Shown here piece by piece: positions 13,271 to 55,005 of a stretch of DNA of 64,000 nt. Made by a program: the position numbers and the translations under genes. The notes under the pieces are model-generated. The model was not told the DNA's origin. It made no database searches and saw only the letters and a list, made by a program, of their open reading frames with translations. Numbering within the stretch: the first letter of the stretch is position 1; the number at the start of each line of letters is the position of its first letter. This DNA comes from Tupaia tana (Eukaryota; Chordata; Mammalia; Scandentia; Tupaiidae), in NCBI GenBank assembly GCA_026018925.1, contig JAKSZU010000027.1, forward strand, positions 2,358,531 to 2,422,530, in the 5' to 3' direction.

Positions 13271-14454
13271 AGTTACGCCTTTCTTATTCTTGGGATAGAC
13301 TGCATTTTCCAAATCGGGCCACAACAATATTTGAAGTGTCGAACGCCTGTCCACTTTTCCACTTCCCGTCAGGGCAGAGTGTCTTTCCTGCTCCTTGAAC
13401 CTGAGCCGGACTCCATAGCTGCCTTCCTAGAACTGTGAGAGGTACTGCATGGTCCTCAAGGCAAGACAGAAACACCTTCCAGCTGAGGCCTGAGCACTGT
13501 GGGCACAGCCAAGTCGCGCACCGTGCCCTGCCCAGCCATGACCCACGAGCTACGAGCGTGACCAACAGCGCTGATGCCGCGGGCCCGGGGAGCTTCGTCA
13601 GTCACAGCACGCGGGAGCAGCGTGACTGCTTCCTGTAGCTGCTTTAGGAAAACGTCTGAACTTTTATCTTCGAATGTTTTGTGTTCCATGGGTGTCCACT
13701 CTTATTTGAGGATAGCAATTGTGTATAAGTAAAATTCTTTTTATCTATATTCTCCTCTCTAATCCTTTTAAGCTTTTTTTCTATTTTATTTTTATTCACT
13801 TTTCTGAAACCTATCCTCTCTGTCCTTAACTGCATTTTTTTGTACTTTTTTTTCCTGTTTTCAATATGTCAATATTTTACATAATGGCGTCCCTTTAATT
13901 TTTTTTCCCCTGAGCTTCCTTCAAAATCTCTTTCTAGCATTTCTTTTCAGATCTTGCAGAGGCCACAGTTGTGTAAACTTATCTTTTTATTTATTTGATT
14001 TCAAGGAAAGTATTTGTTCAGTTTTTTTATGCTTTGTAAAATCATTCTTCTGTTTTTCTTTCTTTGTGAGTGTCTCCATTTTCGTATTGCCATAGTTTGC
14101 TCCAGTCTCTTGCTGGTTTCTCTGTCAGTGCTGTTGGTCTTTTCACGAGAGCCAGTCTTCCGGCTAGCCATCTGCGAAGGAGAGTCTGTGGTGACGAGCA
14201 CCTGCCTGTGGGCGAGCTGGCCCCCTGCCGAGGAGCGTCTAGACCCGCCGCAGGGAACATTCTCCTCCCAACTCGGTCCGAGCCCTCTGTCTCTGCTCCC
14301 GGGGCCAACGTGGCTGGCAGAGAGCGTGAAGCCAGCCTCAGACTGTCCTGCAGTGACCGTGTGTCCGTCCCTCTGAATGACCTCGCCCCCGAGTGCTCTC
14401 CTCGGCCCCACCGCTCAACAGCGAGTGCTCATGAGATGGCGTGAGTGCTGTTCG
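13271..14454. other. No gene recognised
   Basis: The left part is GC-moderate, then a T-rich stretch (13730-14060). Open frames up to 136 codons exist on both strands at 14000-14440, but without recognisable domains or splice context. Confidence 0.45.
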
Positions 14455-14651
14455 TAAAAAAAAGAAAAATAGAGAGACAGAGAGGCAGACAGTGAGAAAT
14501 CACACACACACACACCCCAGGGGGGATGGCCACGCCGCAATCTCTTCTCTGTTCTCCTCTCGGGATTTGGGCACGCACGCACACACACACACACACCCCA
14601 GGGGGGATGGCCACGCCGCAATCTCTTCTCTGTTCTCCTCTCGGGATTTGG

Positions 14652-14684
<33 letters not shown>

Positions 14685-14775
14685 GTGAGTTGAAGCCGCT
14701 GGGTCCAGGACTCAAACTGCAGTCAACTACGTGGGAGTCCAACAACATAACCATTACGCCATCTGCTGGTCCGAA
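14455..14775 (-). mobile_element. tRNA-derived SINE, minus, with internal duplication and CA expansions
   Basis: The segment ccccaggggggatggccacgccgcaatctcttctctgttctcctctcgggatttgggca occurs twice, at 14515-14575 and 14596-14655, separated by and ending in (CA)n runs. The head complement (ccattacgccatctgctggtcc) is at 14751-14773. Confidence 0.85.
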
Positions 14776-15396
14776 TGCTGCTCTTTAATACTGAATTTCC
14801 TCACTACGTCTCAGCATCAGATGAGGGCGAGAGGTGTCCTGGAAAGCGGCCTGCCGTGTAGCCTGGGCCAAGGGTCTGCTCTCTCATCAGTCATCTCCTG
14901 CACCGGTGGGCCTGCGAAACCATCTGTTCACAGAACAGTGAGCGCTCACCGCCTCCAGGAGCACTCTAAGACTCTGAACTACATCGAGCAAAGAAAGCAG
15001 AGATCTGCCCGTGGAACTTCTGTTACTCAGAGTTGAAAGGAGGAGTGACAATAACTAAGTCCTACAGATGAGGCGGTGTGACAGAGAAGTGCGTCAAGGC
15101 GGAGTGAGGGGTGACAAGGGGTAAACAGGCTGCGATTTAAAGTAGCGGTGGCCGTGGGGGCGCCCTCTGCAAGGCTGAGCCACGTGGGCGGATTCCAGGC
15201 CCACGTGTGGAGACCTCCCCGAACGCGCTCCACACTGCGCCCACGATCTGGGGTCGGCTGAGGTTGCGTGTGGATCACGGGACTGGGGCTTTTCTCTCTC
15301 TGAGTAAATAAACTTAGAATAAAGTAGAATAGCCTAAATCTTACCCCATTTGGCAGCTGTTCTTCACAGAATGTGGTTTAAGATTTTCTCCTCAGG

Positions 15397-15650
15397 GCCA
15401 GCAGCTGGCATCGTGGCTAAGGCACTGACTCCCACATGGCTAACCACAGCTGGAGTCCCAGACCAGAGACAGTCTCACTGTCTCTCCCCCTCTAGGTCTC
15501 TGCTGAGCACATGAAGGCACTGACTCCCACATGGCTAACCACAGCTGGAGACCCACACCCAGAGACAGTCTCACTGTCTCTCCCCCTCTAGGGCTCTGCT
15601 GAGCACATGTTTCCTGTAGCAAATTAAATAATAATAAGAAGAAATAATTC
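15397..15650 (+). mobile_element. SINE subfamily carrying CCCCCTCTAG, with 95-bp internal tandem duplication
   Basis: After ggccagcagctggcatcgtggct, a 95-bp segment (aaggcactgactccc...gctgagcacatg) occurs twice, at 15419-15513 and 15514-15608. Each copy contains tctctccccctctag. This CT-CTAG block is the likely seed type for the array at 48.7-50.8 kb. Confidence 0.85.
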
Positions 15651-17959: not shown

Positions 17960-18845
17960 CCGAGACGGCCTCCTTCCTGTGCTTTGCTCTCTTAGAGCTT
18001 CCAGGACGCCCGGCCTTGGCGTTCCTCCTGCTGCTCTGTCCCCAGTCTCCGTCTCCTGCTGCTCCCTCTTCTCCCGGCCCCTCCGGAGTGCTCCAGGGCT
18101 CAGCCCTTGCTCCTGGTCCCTTTCCCCTACGTTTACCTGGGACTTCCGTCCACTCTCACATCTCTGTATGGTTTCCTATAGTATTCGAATCATTTAAAAT
18201 ATGTATTTCCAGCCCAGACTTTCTCACTAAGTTCCTGGCTCGTACACCCAGTCGCCTCTCAACACCTCCAGCTGTGCTCAGCGATGCCTCCAACTCGCCA
18301 TTCCCACAGCAAACAAGCCCCAGAGCCTCTCTGCTCACAGCGTCTGCACTTCAGTTCACGACAGCGCCCCCTACTCATTGGATTCTGCTGAAACTCCAGG
18401 AACGACCCGTTACTCTTTCCTGCACATTTCAGGTCCAGTTGTCAGGAAGCCCTCCAGGCTCTACCTTCAAAAACACCAGGCTAGACCATCTCACTCCCAC
18501 CGGTACCACCTTCCTGCCTCTTCACTCATCTCCCCACTTCCCCCTGCACGCCTGTTTTCTAGTCCAAGCACAGCAGAGTAAAGCTTTGAAACATAAATGG
18601 GCAGCCCATGGTCTGGGGGTTACGGGAGCTGCGTCTTACAGGGCAACCGCACGGTCCAAGTCCGGGACCCCACGGGAGGTGCCCTCCCTCTCCTTCGCCC
18701 TGTCCTTCAGTGTCCCTCTGGTGAGTGCACACACCCTCTAGCAAATAAATAAATTCATTCATTAAAAATGTTCCTCTCACTACCCCATCGAAATCCTTCC
18801 GTGGATCACCGTTTCACTCAGAGTTAAGTTCAAGGTACTTTCTAA
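17960..18845 (+). mobile_element. L2 LINE fossil, sense, split by a short SINE
   Basis: The order tatttccagcccagactttctcac, gtacacccagtcgcctctcaacacctcca and ggctctaccttcaaaaacacc, then after the SINE ccttccgtggatcaccgtttcactcagagttaag, is that of L2 ORF2/3' end. This explains the 241-codon open frame across 18.0-18.7 kb. Confidence 0.75.
18592..18765 (+). mobile_element. Short SINE inserted in L2
   Basis: Head ggcagcccatggtctgggggttacgggagctg, then CT-rich text and ggtgagtgcacacaccctctagcaaataaataaa. It divides the L2 text. Confidence 0.6.
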
Positions 18846-47058: not shown

Positions 47059-47191
47059 GGTGGCATCAGCCTGGCACAAACTAGCTGCTCGACCTTGGAG
47101 GAAATCCTGATCGTCTCTGAGTCGTGCTTTCTACCCCTGACGTGGAGGTAAGCACGTTTGGAAAAGCACAGAGTTTCAAGGCTCTCTGAAC

Positions 47192-47390
47192 AGGGTCAGT
47201 GCGGGCCGGCCCGGCGGCACAGAGTTAAGGCCGCGCGCTGGGAGCCGGTCCCCACCGCCGACACGGCTCAGCGCATGTGCCCCAGCCCCGGCCGACAGGG
47301 GGAGAACTGCAGGGGAAGGGCCGGCCTGGCCGCTAAGGCGCTGGACTCCCACGTGGCCACCCACGGAGTCCTGGATCCGGCAGCTTGCTC
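47192..47390 (+). mobile_element. SINE heads leading into the CCCTCT array
   Basis: ggccggcctggccgctaaggcgctggactcccacgtggccacccacggagtcctggatccggcagcttg (47319-47387) is a clear SINE head and body. It runs without a break into the CT array. A second, diverged head-like stretch is at 47200-47290. Confidence 0.75.
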
Positions 47391-48618
47391 TCTCCCTCTC
47401 TCTCTCCCTCCCTCTCTCCCTCTCCCTCTCCCTCCCTCTCTCCCTCTCCCTCTCCCTCTCCCTCTCCCTCTCCCTCTCCCTCTCCCTCCCTCTCTCCCTC
47501 TCCCTCTCCCTCCCTCTCTCCCTCTCCCTCTCCCTCTCCCTCTCCCTCTCCCTCTCCCTCCCTCTCTCCCTCTCCCTCTCCCTCTCCCTCTCCCTCTCCC
47601 TCTCCCTCTCCCTCTCTCTCCCTCTCTCCCTCTCCCTCTCCCTCCCTCTCTCCCTCTCCCTCTCCCTCTCCCTCTCCCTCTCCCTCTCCCTCCCTCTCTC
47701 CCTCTCCCTCTCCCTCCCTCTCTCCCTCTCCCTCTCCCTCTCCTCTCTCCCTCTCCCTCTCCCTCTCCCTCTCCCTCTCCCTCCCTCTCTCTCCTCTCCC
47801 TCTCCCTCTCCCTCTCCCTCTCCCTCTCCCTCTCCCTCCCTCTCTCCCTCTCCCTCTCTCCCTCTCTCCCTCTCCCTCTCCCTCTCCCTCTCCCTCTCTC
47901 CCTCTCCCCTCTCCCTCTCTCTCCCTCTCTCCCTCTCTCCTCTCTCCTCCCTCTCTCCCTCTCCCTCCCCTCTCCCTCTCCCTCTCCTCCTCTCCCTCTC
48001 CCTCTCTCTCCCTCTCTCCCTCTCCCTCTCCCTCCCCTCTCCCTCTCCCTCCCTCTCCCTCTCCCTCTCCCTCTCCCTCCCTCTCTCCCTCTCCCTCTCC
48101 CTCTCCCTCTCCCTCTCCCTCTCCCTCTCCCTCTCCCTCTCCCTCCCTCTCTCCCTCTCCCTCTCTCTCCCTCTCTCCCTCTCCCTCTCCCTCTCCCTCT
48201 CTCTCCCTCTCCCCCCTCTCTCCCTCTCTCCTCTCCCTCTCTCCTCTCCCTCTCCCTCTCCCTCTCCCTCCCTCTCTCCCTCTCCCTCTCCCTCCCTCTC
48301 TCCCTCTCTCCTCTCTCTCTCCCTCTCTCTCCCTCTCTCCCTCTCCCTCTCCCTCCCTCTCTCCCTCTCCCTCTCTCTCCCTCTCCCTCTCCCTCTCCCT
48401 CCCTCTCTCCCTCTCCCTCTCCCTCTCCCTCTCCCTCTCTCTCCCTCCCTCTCCCTCCCTCTCTCCCTCTCCCTCTCTCCCTCTCTCCCTCTCCCTCTCC
48501 CTCTCCCTCTCCCTCTCTCTCTCCCTCTCCCTCTCCCTCCCTCTCTCCCTCTCTCCTCTCCCTCTCCCTCTCCCTCTCCCTCTCCCTCTCCCTCTCCCTC
48601 TCCCTCTCCCTCTCTCTG
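47388..48618 (+). repeat. (CCCTCT)n array, 1.23 kb
   Basis: Almost pure pyrimidine on the plus strand in hexamer units with ccctccctctct and ctctctccct interruptions. It ends in ctctctggtcaaattgaagaataac, the tail of a short SINE, so it sits inside a SINE. Confidence 0.97.
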
Positions 48619-48654
48619 GTCAAATTGAAGAATAACAATAAATACAATTTTTTT

Positions 48655-50880
48655 AAAGTGGAGGAAAAAGGGATCATGGCCTGACCGTGCTCACTGTGGG
48701 GGTGCTTCCTCTACCTCTCTCCCCCTCTAGTCTCTCTCTCCCCCCCTCTAGTCTCTCTCTCCCCCTCTAGTCTCTCTCTCCCCCTCTAGTCTCTCTCTCC
48801 CTCTAGTCTCTCTCTCCCCTCTAGTCTCTCTCTCCCCTCTAGTCTCTCTCTCCCCTCTAGTCTCTCTCCCCTCTAGTCTCTCTCCCCTCTAGTCTCTCTC
48901 TCCCCTCTAGTCTCTCTCCCCTCTAGTCTCTCTCCCACCTCTAGTCTCTCTCCCCTCTCTAGTCTCTCTCTCCCCTCTAGTCTCTCTCTCCCCTCTAGTC
49001 TCTCTCCCCTCTAGTCTCTCTCTCCCCCTCTAGTCTCTCTCTCCCCTCTAGTCTCTCTCCCCTCTAGTCTCTCTCTCCCCTCTAGTCTCTCTCCCCTCTA
49101 GTCTCTCTCCCCCTCTAGTCTCTCTCTCCCCTCTAGTCTCTCTCCCCTCTAGTCTCTCTCTCCTCTAGTCTCTCTCTCCCCCTCTAGTCTCTCTCCCCTC
49201 TAGTCTCTCTCCCCTCTAGTCTCTCTCCCCTCTAGTCTCTCTCTCCCCTCTAGTCTCTCTCCCCTCTAGTCTCTCTCTCCTCCCCCTCTAGTCTCTCTCT
49301 CCCCTCTAGTCTCTCTCCCCTCTAGTCTCTCTCCCCCTCTAGTCTCTCTCTCCCCTCTAGTCTCTCTCCCCTCTAGTCTCTCTCTCTCCCTCTAGTCTCT
49401 CTCTCCCCCTCTAGTCTCTCTCTCCCCTCTAGTCTCTCTCTCCCCTCTAGTCTCTCTCTCCCCTCTAGTCTCTCTCCCCTCTAGTCTCTCTCTTCCCTCT
49501 AGTCTCTCTCTCCCCTCTAGTCTCTCTCCCCTCTAGTCTCTCTCTCCCTCTAGTCTCTCTCTCCCCCTCTAGTCTCTCTCCCCTCTAGTCTCTCTCTCCC
49601 CCTCTAGTCTCTCTCCCCTCTAGTCTCTCTCTCCCCCTCTAGTCTCTCTCTCCCTCTAGTCTCTCTCTCCCCTCTCTAGTCTCTCTCTCCTCTAGTCTCT
49701 CTCTCCCCCTCTAGTCTCTCTCCCCTCTAGTCTCTCTCTCCTCTAGTCTCTCTCTCCCCTCTAGTCTCTCTCCCCCTCTAGTCTCTCTCCCCTCTAGTGT
49801 CTCTCTCCCCTCTAGTCTCTCTCCCCTCTAGTGTCTCTCTCCCCTCTAGTCTCTCTCTCCCCCTCTAGTCTCTCTCTCCCTCTAGTCTCTCTCTCCCCTC
49901 TAGTCTCTCTCCCCTCTAGTCTCTCTCCCCTCTAGTCTCTCTCTCCCTCTAGTCTCTCTCTCCCTCTAGTCTCTCTCTCCCCTCTAGTCTCTCTCTCCCC
50001 TCTACTCTCTCTCCCCTCTAGTCTCTCTCCCCTCTAGTCTCTCTCTCCCTCTAGTCTCTCTCTCCCTCTAGTCTCTCTCTCCCCCTCTAGTCTCTCTCCC
50101 CTCTAGTCTCTCTCTCCCCTCTAGTCTCTCTCCCCTCTAGTCTCTCTCTCCCCCTCTAGTCTCTCTCTCCCTCTAGTCTCTCTCCCCCTCTAGTCTCTCT
50201 CCCCCTCTATTCTCTCTCCCCCTCTAGTCTCTCTCTCCCCTCTAGTCTCTCTCCCCCTCTAGTCTCTCTCCCCTCTAGTCTCTCTCTCCCCTCTAGTCTC
50301 TCTCCCCCTCTTGTCTCTCTCCCCTCTAGTCTCTCTCCCCTCAAGTCTCTCTCTCCCCTCTAGTCTCTCTCCCCTCTAGTCTCTCTCTCCCCTCTAGTCT
50401 CTCTCCCCTCTAGTCTCTCTCTCTCCCCTCTAGTCTCTCTCCCCTCTAGTCTCTCTCCCCTCTAGTCTCTCTCTCCCCTCTAGTCTCTCTCCCCTCTAGT
50501 CTCTCTCCCCCTCTAGTCTCTCTCCCCTCTAGTCTCTCTCCCCTCTAGTCTCTCTCTCCCCTCTAGTCTCTCTCCCCCCTCTAGTCTCTCTCCCCTCTAG
50601 TCTCTCTTTCCCTCTAGTCTCTCTCCCCTCTAGTCTCTCTCCCCTCTAGTCTCTCTCTCCCTCTAGTCTCTCTCTCCCCTCTAGTCTCTCTCCCTCTAGT
50701 CTCTCTCCCCTCTAGTCTCTCTCTCCCCTCTAGTCTCTCTCCCCTCTAGTCTCTCTCTCTCCCCTCTAGTCTCTCTCCCCCTCTAGTCTCTCTCTCCCCC
50801 TCTAGTATCTCTCCTTCTCTAGTCTCTCTCTCTCCCTCTTTCTCTCTAAGTGCACACACCTTTTGGCAATATTTTAAAAT
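48655..50880 (+). repeat. CTCTAGT minisatellite (16-19 bp units), 2.1 kb, inside a SINE
   Basis: Units are ctctctctcccctctagt with lengths varying by one or two bases (ctctctcccctctagt, ctctctctccccctctagt). The left flank (ggaggaaaaagggatcatggcctgaccgtgctcactgtgggggtgcttcctct) and the right flank (aagtgcacacaccttttggcaat) are the middle and end of a SINE. Confidence 0.95.
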
Positions 50881-50929: not shown

Positions 50930-53900
50930 TCAGTCCCAGGCAGCACCAGCGCAGGGTCTACACTGAACAGCTCCCGCCCCTCTGCAGTCCTGGGCAGAAC
51001 CAGGGGCAGGGTCTACACTGAACAGCTCCCACCCCTCTGCAGTCCTGGGCAGAACCAGAGGCAGGGTCTACACTGAACAGCTCCCGCCCCTCTGCAGGCC
51101 CGGGCAGAACCAGGGGCAGGGTCTACACTGAACAGCTCCCACCCCTCTGCAGGCCCGGGCAGCACCAGGGGCAGGGTCTACACTGAACAGCTCCCACCCC
51201 TCTGCAGGCCCGGGCAGAACCAGGGGCAGGGTCTACACTGAACAGCTCCCACCCCTCTGCAGGCCCGGGCAGAACCAGGGGCAGGGTCTACACTGAACAG
51301 CTCCCGCCCCTCTGCAGGCCTGGGCAGAACCAGGGGCAGGGTCTACACTGAACAGCTCCCGCCCCTCTGCAGGCCCGGGCAGAACCAGAGGCAGGGTCTA
51401 CACTGAACAGCTCCCGCCCCTCTGCAGGCCTGGGCAGAACCAGAGGCAGGGTCTACACTGAACAGCTCCCGCCCTCTGCAGGCCCGGGCAGAACCAGGGG
51501 CAGGGTCTACACTGAACAGCTCCCGCCCTCTGCAGTCCTAGGCAGAACCAGGGGCAGGGTCTACACTGAACAGCTCCCACCCCTCTGCAGGCCTGGGCAG
51601 AACCAGAGGCAGGGTCTACACTGAACAGCTCCCACCCCTGTGCAGGCCTGGGCAGAACCAGGGGCAGGGTCTACACTGAACAGCTCCCACCCCTCTGCAG
51701 GCCCGGGCAGAACCAGAGGCAGGGTCTACACTGAACAGCTCCCGCCCTCTGCAGTCCTGGGCAGAACCAGAGGCAGGGTCTACACTGAACAGCTCCCGCC
51801 CCTCTGCAGGCCTGGGCAGAACCAGCGGCAGGGTCTACACTGAACAGCTCCCGCCCCTCTGCAGGCCCGGGCAGAACCAGGGGCAGGGTCTACACTGAAC
51901 AGCTCCCGCCCCTCTGCAGGCCCGGGCAGAACAAGAGGCAGGGTCTACACTGAACAGCTCCCGCCCCTCTGCAGGCCCGGGCAGAACCAGGGGCAGGGTC
52001 TACACTGAACAGCTCCCACCCCTCTGCAGGCCCGGGCAGAACCAGGGGCAGGGTCTACACTGAACAGCTCCCACCCCTCTGCAGTCCTGGGCAGAACCAG
52101 AGGCAGGGTCTACACTGAACAGCTCCCACCCCTCTGCAGGCCCGGGCAGAACCAGGGGCAGGGTCTACACTGAACAGCTCCCGCCCCTCTGCAGGCCCGG
52201 GCAGAACCAGAGGCAGGGTCTACACTGAACAGCTCCCGCCCCTCTGCAGGCCTGGGCAGAACCAGAGGCAGGGTCTACACTGAACAGCTCCCGCCCTCTG
52301 CAGGCCCGGGCAGAACCAGGGGCAGGGTCTACACTGAACAGCTCCCACCCCTCTGCAGGCCTGGGCAGAACCAGAGGCAGGGTCTACACTGAACAGCTCC
52401 CACCCCTGTGCAGGCCTGGGCAGAACCAGGGGCAGGGTCTACACTGAACAGCTCCCACCCCTCTGCAGGCCCGGGCAGAACCAGAGGCAGGGTCTACACT
52501 GAACAGCTCCCGCCCTCTGCAGTCCTGGGCAGAACCAGAGGCAGGGTCTACACTGAACAGCTCCCGCCCCTCTGCAGGCCTGGGCAGAACCAGCGGCAGG
52601 GTCTACACTGAACAGCTCCCGCCCCTCTGCAGGCCCGGGCAGAACCAGGGGCAGGGTCTACACTGAACAGCTCCCGCCCCTCTGCAGGCCCGGGCAGAAC
52701 AAGAGGCAGGGTCTACACTGAACAGCTCCCGCCCCTCTGCAGGCCCGGGCAGAACCAGGGGCAGGGTCTACACTGAACAGCTCCCACCCCTCTGCAGGCC
52801 CGGGCAGAACCAGGGGCAGGGTCTACACTGAACAGCTCCCACCCCTCTGCAGTCCTGGGCAGAACCAGAGGCAGGGTCTACACTGAACAGCTCCCACCCC
52901 TCTGCAGGCCCGGGCAGAACCAGGGGCAGGGTCTACACTGAACAGCTCCCACCCCTCTGCAGGCCTGGGCAGAACCAGGGGCAGGGTCTACACTGAACAG
53001 CTCCAACCCCTCTGCAGTCCTGGGCAGAACCAGCAGCAGGGTCTACACTGAACAGCTCCCACCCCTCTGCAGGCCCGGGCAGAAGCAGCAGCAGGGTCTA
53101 CACTGAACAGCTCCCACCCCTCTGCAGGCCTGGGCAGAACCAGAGGCAGGGTCTACACTGAACAGCTCCCACCCCTCTGCAGGCCCGGGCAGAACCAGGG
53201 GCAGGGTCTACACTGAACAGCTCCCGCCCCTCTGCAGGCCCGGGCAGAACCAGGGGCAGGGTCTACACTGAACAGCTCCCACCCCTCTGCAGTCCTGGGC
53301 AGAACCAGAGGCAGGGTCTACACTGAACAGCTCCCACCCCTCTGCAGGCCCGGGCAGAACCAGGGGCAGGGTCTACACTGAACAGCTCCCACCCCTCTGC
53401 AGGCCTGGGCAGAACCAGGGGCAGGGTCTACACTGAACAGCTCCAACCCCTCTGCAGTCCTGGGCAGAACCAGCAGCAGGGTCTACACTGAACAGCTCCC
53501 ACCCCTCTGCAGGCCCGGGCAGAAGCAGCAGCAGGGTCTACACTGAACAGCTCCCACCCCTCTGCAGGCCTGGGCAGAACCAGAGGCAGGGTCTACACTG
53601 AACAGCTCCCACCCCTCTGCAGGCCCGGGCAGAACCAGGGGCAGGGTCTACACTGAACAGCTCCCGCCCCTCTGCAGGCCCGGGCAGAACCAGGGGCAGG
53701 GTCTACACTGAACAGCTCCCACCCCTCTGCAGGCCTGGGCAGAACCAGGGGCAGGGTCTACACTGAACAGCTCCCACCCCTCTGCAGGCCTGGGCAGAAC
53801 CAGGGGCAGGGTCTACACTGAACAGCTCCCGCCCCTCTGCAGGCCCGGGCAGAACCAGAGGCAGGGTCTACACTGAACAGCTCCCGCCCTCTGCAGTCCT

Positions 53901-54948
53901 GGGCAGAACCAGAGGCAGGGTCTACACTGAACAGCTCCCGCCCCTCTGCAGGCCTGGGCAGAACCAGCGGCAGGGTCTACACTGAACAGCTCCCGCCCCT
54001 CTGCAGGCCCGGGCAGAACCAGGGGCAGGGTCTACACTGAACAGCTCCCGCCCCTCTGCAGGCCCGGGCAGAACAAGAGGCAGGGTCTACACTGAACAGC
54101 TCCCGCCCCTCTGCAGGCCCGGGCAGAACCAGGGGCAGGGTCTACACTGAACAGCTCCCACCCCTCTGCAGGCCCGGGCAGAACCAGGGGCAGGGTCTAC
54201 ACTGAACAGCTCCCACCCCTCTGCAGTCCTGGGCAGAACCAGAGGCAGGGTCTACACTGAACAGCTCCCACCCCTCTGCAGGCCCAGGCAGAACCAGGGG
54301 CAGGGTCTACACTGAACAGCTCCCGCCCCTCTGCAGGCCCGGGCAGAACCAGGGGCAGGGTCTACACTGAACAGCTCCCACCCCTCTGCAGGCCTGGGCA
54401 GAACCAGGGGCAGGGTCTACACTGAACAGCTCCCACCCCTCTGCAGGCCTGGGCAGAACCAGGGGCAGGGTCTACACTGAACAGCTCCCGCCCCTCTGCA
54501 GGCCCGGGCAGAACCAGAGGCAGGGTCTACACTGAACAGCTCCCGCCCCTCTGCAGGCCCGGGCAGAACCAGCAGCAGGGTCTACACTGAACAGCTCCCG
54601 CCCCTCTGCAGGCCCGGGCAGAACCAGGGGCAGGGTCTACACTGAACAGCTCCCACCCCTGTGCAGGCCTGGGCAGAACCAGGGGCAGGGTCTACACTGA
54701 ACAGCTCCCACCCCTCTGCAGGCCTGGGCAGAACCAGGGGCAGGGTCTACACTGAACAGCTCCAACCCCTCTGCAGTCCTGGGCAGAACCAGCAGCAGGG
54801 TCTACACTGAACAGCTCCCACCCCTCTGCAGGCCCGGGCAGAAGCAGCAGCAGGGTCTACACTGAACAGCTCCCACCCCTCTGCAGGCCTGGGCAGAACC
54901 AGCGGCAGGGTCTACACTGAACAGCTCCCACCCCTCTGCAGGCCCGGG
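50930..54948 (+). repeat. 55-bp minisatellite, about 73 copies, with higher-order blocks
   Basis: The unit is gcagggtctacactgaacag plus ctcccgcccctctgcaggcc plus cgggcagaaccaggg, exactly 55 bp. Variants (tcctgggc, aacaagagg, ccaacccc, agcagcagg, one-base-shorter cccgccctc) recur in the same order at 768-bp and 440-bp spacing, showing block duplication. The array ends about 58 bp before the C1 exon. Confidence 0.98.
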
Positions 54949-55005
54949 CACAGGGCGCACCCAGCTGTGAGCACCGGCCTCCCTCCCGCCCGGGGCCCCT
55001 CAGAC

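Follow-up and report, generated by a model that had tools for sequence, protein, structure and literature searches.

The 2.1-kb minisatellite delimited by TRF at positions 48715-50847 of the 64,000-nucleotide stretch of Tupaia tana DNA analysed here (the window, which spans positions 2358531-2422530 of a 28.6-Mb contig) is very probably the expanded pyrimidine tract of an older SINE, designated SINE C, while a younger SINE directly upstream, designated SINE A and perhaps inserted there, expanded separately. This reading is supported by the position of the array at the pyrimidine tract of a SINE, by the colinearity of its two flanks, and by the shortness of the corresponding tracts in relatives of the element. 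An initial annotation of the same DNA had proposed that the pyrimidine stretch of one SINE expanded more than 100-fold, and the 122 units of the array, the fit of the flanks to one SINE and the confinement of the motif to a single locus agree with that proposal. The same annotation overlooked the second expanded SINE directly upstream, which is internally shortened and belongs to a younger subfamily. The features of the locus are listed in Table 1.

Table 1. Parts of the two adjoining SINEs and their expanded tracts, in window coordinates.
Feature	Position	Strand	Evidence
Possible 5' remnant of the older SINE (older-profile positions about 119-160)	47276-47320	+	Weak: -3.5 bits
tRNA-type head of the younger SINE (A)	47323-47387	+	28.0 bits over positions 19-87 of the profile
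Expanded pyrimidine tract of SINE A, (CTCCCT)n-like	47388-48617	+	TRF; purine-free over 1230 nt
3' tail of SINE A (GGTCAAATTGAAGAATAACAATAAATA...)	48618-48657	+	39 other scored genome matches; siblings end alike
Middle of the older SINE (C), left flank of the array	48658-48714	+	59.3 bits against the profile of the older subfamily; five other genome relatives at 78-83%
Minisatellite of 15-22-bp units, very probably the expanded pyrimidine tract of SINE C	48715-50847	+	TRF, unit splitting, genome motif searches
3' end of SINE C, right flank of the array	50848-50880 (end approximate)	+	Fits the profile; weaker under the older-subfamily profile

The flanks of the array

The window contains many copies of one tRNA-type SINE built of a head, a tract of pyrimidines and an A-rich end, and a family profile was built from 15 aligned copies. 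The head of the consensus of these copies contains the box-B-like sequence GGTTCGAGTCC, which fits the consensus of an RNA polymerase III box B. No tRNA gene was called in the window by ARAGORN, and hence no intact tRNA; this program commonly fails on diverged SINE heads, and its failure does not argue against a tRNA origin.

The left flank of the array corresponds to positions 139 to about 212-221 of the SINE profile and the right flank to positions from about 199 to 251-257, and the two agree in strand and order. With the family profile the joined flanks score 37.4 bits, versus 21.2 bits when the left part stands by itself and 24.5 bits when it is followed only by pyrimidines; neither the 1000 shuffled tails (highest 31.5) nor the 1831 other segments of the window (highest 33.6) yielded a score as high, and a repetition of the test with other shuffles again gave none in 1000. 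The tail of the right flank also aligns directly to the 3' end of the SINE at 18716-18760, with none of 2000 shuffles aligning as well. Under a profile of the older subfamily, which was built from five copies, little is gained from the tail, and 68 of 1000 shuffles of it score as high. This profile is poor at its 3' end because two of the five copies (L040 and L041) have, as judged by eye, aberrant 3' ends; the result of 68 in 1000 stands, so that the case for a SINE in the right flank is carried by the family profile together with a single direct alignment. The left flank is part of a SINE and the right flank fits the same SINE, as the initial annotation had held when it described the two as middle and end parts of one element, with the older profile giving the weaker agreement. 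The further proposal that the ends of the SINE stayed in place around the array holds for the middle and the 3' end, but the 5' half does not adjoin them, the tail of the second expanded SINE being found there instead. A start of the feature at 48655, as originally given, includes the final three bases of that tail.

Unexpanded relatives and the single-locus motif

Six candidate matches to the left flank were scored in the genome, and five places other than the locus itself match at 78-83% identity. All five are located in SINEs of the older subfamily, four of them with head and middle in one piece, and the pyrimidine tracts of the four measured relatives are 16, 21, 32 and 36 nt long. In a wider listing of 66 rows, which includes at least three pairs sharing one tract as well as SINE A of the window, the longest tract besides that of SINE A is 74 nt.

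Motif searches were conducted as pattern searches over the 2.95-Gb genome (1198 contigs). An exact 28-mer of two units has 36 matches and a 30-mer with up to two mismatches has 35, every one of them in the array; a reversed control motif has no match in the genome. The initial annotation had suggested a genome search for expansion of the motif in other SINEs; the matches to the two-unit motif are confined to this array. A satellite dispersed elsewhere was rejected as an explanation on the same grounds, with the qualification that distant variants could escape a pattern search. The seed block TCTCTCCCCCTCTAG is present at about 15483 and about 15579, both sites lying within one SINE copy that contains a 96-bp duplication; the earlier statement that the SINE at 15397-15650 carries this block is therefore correct, and the copy is no more than a candidate source of the seed. 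Internal tandem duplications occur in two SINEs of the window besides A and C, namely this one, at 15395-15650 (96 bp), and one at 14443-14778 (81 bp).

The expanded SINE upstream

The tract of SINE A contains no purine and no TT in 1230 nt, and the next longest pure pyrimidine run in the window is 85 nt. Relatives of its tail were found at 39 other places, from 40 scored of 180 first-look candidates. The tracts of these siblings, as measured by a script, are 18-60 nt long in 35 of the 39, versus 1230 nt in SINE A; the other four, which fall outside the pattern of the script, were read by eye as being under about 75 nt. Patterns of the G-quadruplex type cover 1,099 of the 1,230 nt on the purine strand of the tract, against a background of 314 of 88,600 nt when both strands of window positions 1-44300 are counted, and none was found in the array at 48715-50847.

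SINE A was perhaps inserted into SINE C. The candidate 5' remnant of the older element has a score of -3.5 bits with the older profile that was reached by 2 of 1000 shuffles, and a local alignment of the candidate 5' half of the older SINE at 47191-47331 has a score equalled in 70 of 2000 shuffles and in 15 of 1153 segments of the window. The full join with the candidate remnant scores 58.3 bits, more than any of 1000 joins with a shuffled 5' part (highest 52.1), yet less than the 60.8 bits obtained without the remnant, and the candidate target-site duplication of SINE A is weak, with about 11 of 16 bases matching. Insertion of a younger SINE into an older one does occur in this genome, as illustrated by the fifth relative of the left flank (L044), in which a younger SINE sits within an older one; the nested element, around 1260-1460 of that sequence, is accompanied by a 13-nt direct repeat, AAAAACACAGCAG, recognized by eye.

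Tandem repeats around the locus

Five tandem arrays occupy 9,742 of the 10,631 bp between 44320 and 54950. One of them, at 50931-54950, has a 55-bp unit in about 73 copies with 95% identity and begins 84 bases past the array studied here. The first 10 kb of the contig are satellite throughout, with periods of 168 and 78 bp and 145 occurrences of TTAGGG, and the sequence suggests that this end of the contig may lie near a telomere and is perhaps subtelomeric. It is conceivable, though rather unlikely, that the site drives both expansions, in which case the array of SINE A, prone to form G-quadruplexes or triplexes, would destabilize its neighbour during replication within the cluster of five arrays.

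A less likely explanation, which we consider improbable, is that an ordinary minisatellite of independent origin came to lie between SINE fragments by chance. The window is indeed rich in unrelated arrays: TRF assigns 25.3% of it to tandem repeats, versus 4.4%, 0.4% (half of this piece being N) and 4.7% for three adjacent pieces of 10 kb, and 1.0-1.3% for two pieces taken from mid-contig. The weakness of the right flank under the older-subfamily profile also favours chance placement, whereas the two flanks are colinear on one SINE profile, the array is placed exactly at the pyrimidine tract, and its unit resembles the sequence of such a tract.

Units of the array

Units were delimited by splitting the array at the anchor TCTAGT, which yields 122 of them: a first unit of 24 nt at 48708 and 121 later units of 15-22 nt that comprise 23 distinct sequences. 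The commonest, CTCTCTCCCCTCTAGT (40 of 121), and the next commonest, CTCTCTCTCCCCTCTAGT (28 of 121), are 16 and 18 nt long, respectively, and differ by one whole CT. Exactly two purines are present in 113 of the 121 units; the grammar of the unit is broken in 11, which implies few substitutions, and these are mostly private, with one substitution shared by a single pair of units that are two units apart. Adjacent units resemble each other no more than they do after permutation (lag-1 r = -0.087, permutation standard deviation 0.09), and the longest run that recurs comprises five units, the same as in most permutations. The order of the units is random, and recent local duplication of units is therefore poorly supported; the unit-level duplication suggested by the initial annotation is favoured by the pair with a shared substitution but not by the likeness of neighbours. 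A higher-order repeat was rejected, as only lags 13 and 26 of 40 exceed z = 2 (2.3 and 2.2), approximately as expected by chance, and the longest repeated run is that of permuted arrays; the 34-bp period reported by TRF was likewise dismissed, being the sum of the two common unit lengths.

Part of the difference in length among C runs and CT runs could be assembly error. That the length of the array and the variation of its units are mostly artefacts of assembly is very improbable: the unit-length variants show the random placement expected of read errors, and the next 10 kb of the assembly contains a stretch of 5000 N (L079), but the two most frequent units are a full CT apart and substitution variants exist as well. 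Least likely of all is a single pyrimidine array later split by a SINE tail and a SINE middle, for although TRF can merge both arrays into one long repeat of low identity (47388-50846), the units differ throughout (no purine in 1230 nt versus exactly two in 113 of 121 units) and the two arrays lie at the pyrimidine tracts of different SINEs.

Proposed course of events

Expansion of the tract of SINE C, the preferred reading, would have begun with an old tRNA-type SINE that contained a short pyrimidine tract. A local change in the tract may have produced a block ending in CTCTAGT, the putative seed, from which replication slippage or unequal exchange would then have built about 120 head-to-tail copies, at a time and by a process that are conjectural, with the SINE middle left on one side and the 3' end on the other. 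Rapid growth followed by slippage in C runs and CT runs would fit the mixed unit lengths and the mostly private substitutions. The younger, internally shortened SINE A directly upstream was perhaps inserted in SINE C, and its tract may have grown on its own into the (CTCCCT)n-like array of 1230 nt. The evidence suggests no host function for the array.

Comparison with known systems

Growth of tandem repeats from the poly-pyrimidine tracts of SINEs has already been published, and the unusual part of this locus is the presence of two neighbouring expansions in adjoining SINEs with different units. The locus is a clear natural record of the birth of a minisatellite from a mobile element, with short-tract relatives and one expanded locus, and the second expansion next door would allow a comparison of whether growth is set by sequence or by site. 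The (CCCTCT)n hexamer of the SVA element in TAF1, the purine strand of which is said to form a G-quadruplex, belongs to the same hexamer class as the array of SINE A; SVA, however, is a composite element of which the hexamer is a standard part, whereas the siblings of SINE A hold just 18-60 nt of mixed pyrimidines. In mouse, a (GGCAGA)n VNTR was reportedly described by Bois in 1998 as having grown from SINE B1, which is a 7SL-type element, unlike the tRNA-type SINE here. Two reviews mention this mouse array from B1 together with minisatellites from Alu (PMC6947457, PMC9659126). As presented there, the B1 VNTR resembles the array described here in that a motif within a SINE became an array, which in B1 is unstable, and differs in having another motif and in forming a family of loci, the motif here being found at one locus. 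A survey of human repeats gives 7,276 element-derived repeats, or 23% of the repeats studied, and the minisatellites from Alu and other elements that it covers likewise arise within a transposable element, although the elements and the units differ (PMC3389668). A close parallel is offered by the tRNA SINEs of carnivores (CAN-SINEs), the poly-Y region of which regularly becomes microsatellites (PMC1634856). Like SINE C and SINE A, these are tRNA-type elements with an internal pyrimidine tract that is converted to a tandem repeat by slippage; the CAN-SINE repeats reported there are mostly AG microsatellites, whereas here, in another SINE family, a 15-22-bp unit extends over 2.1 kb and a hexamer-like repeat over 1.2 kb.
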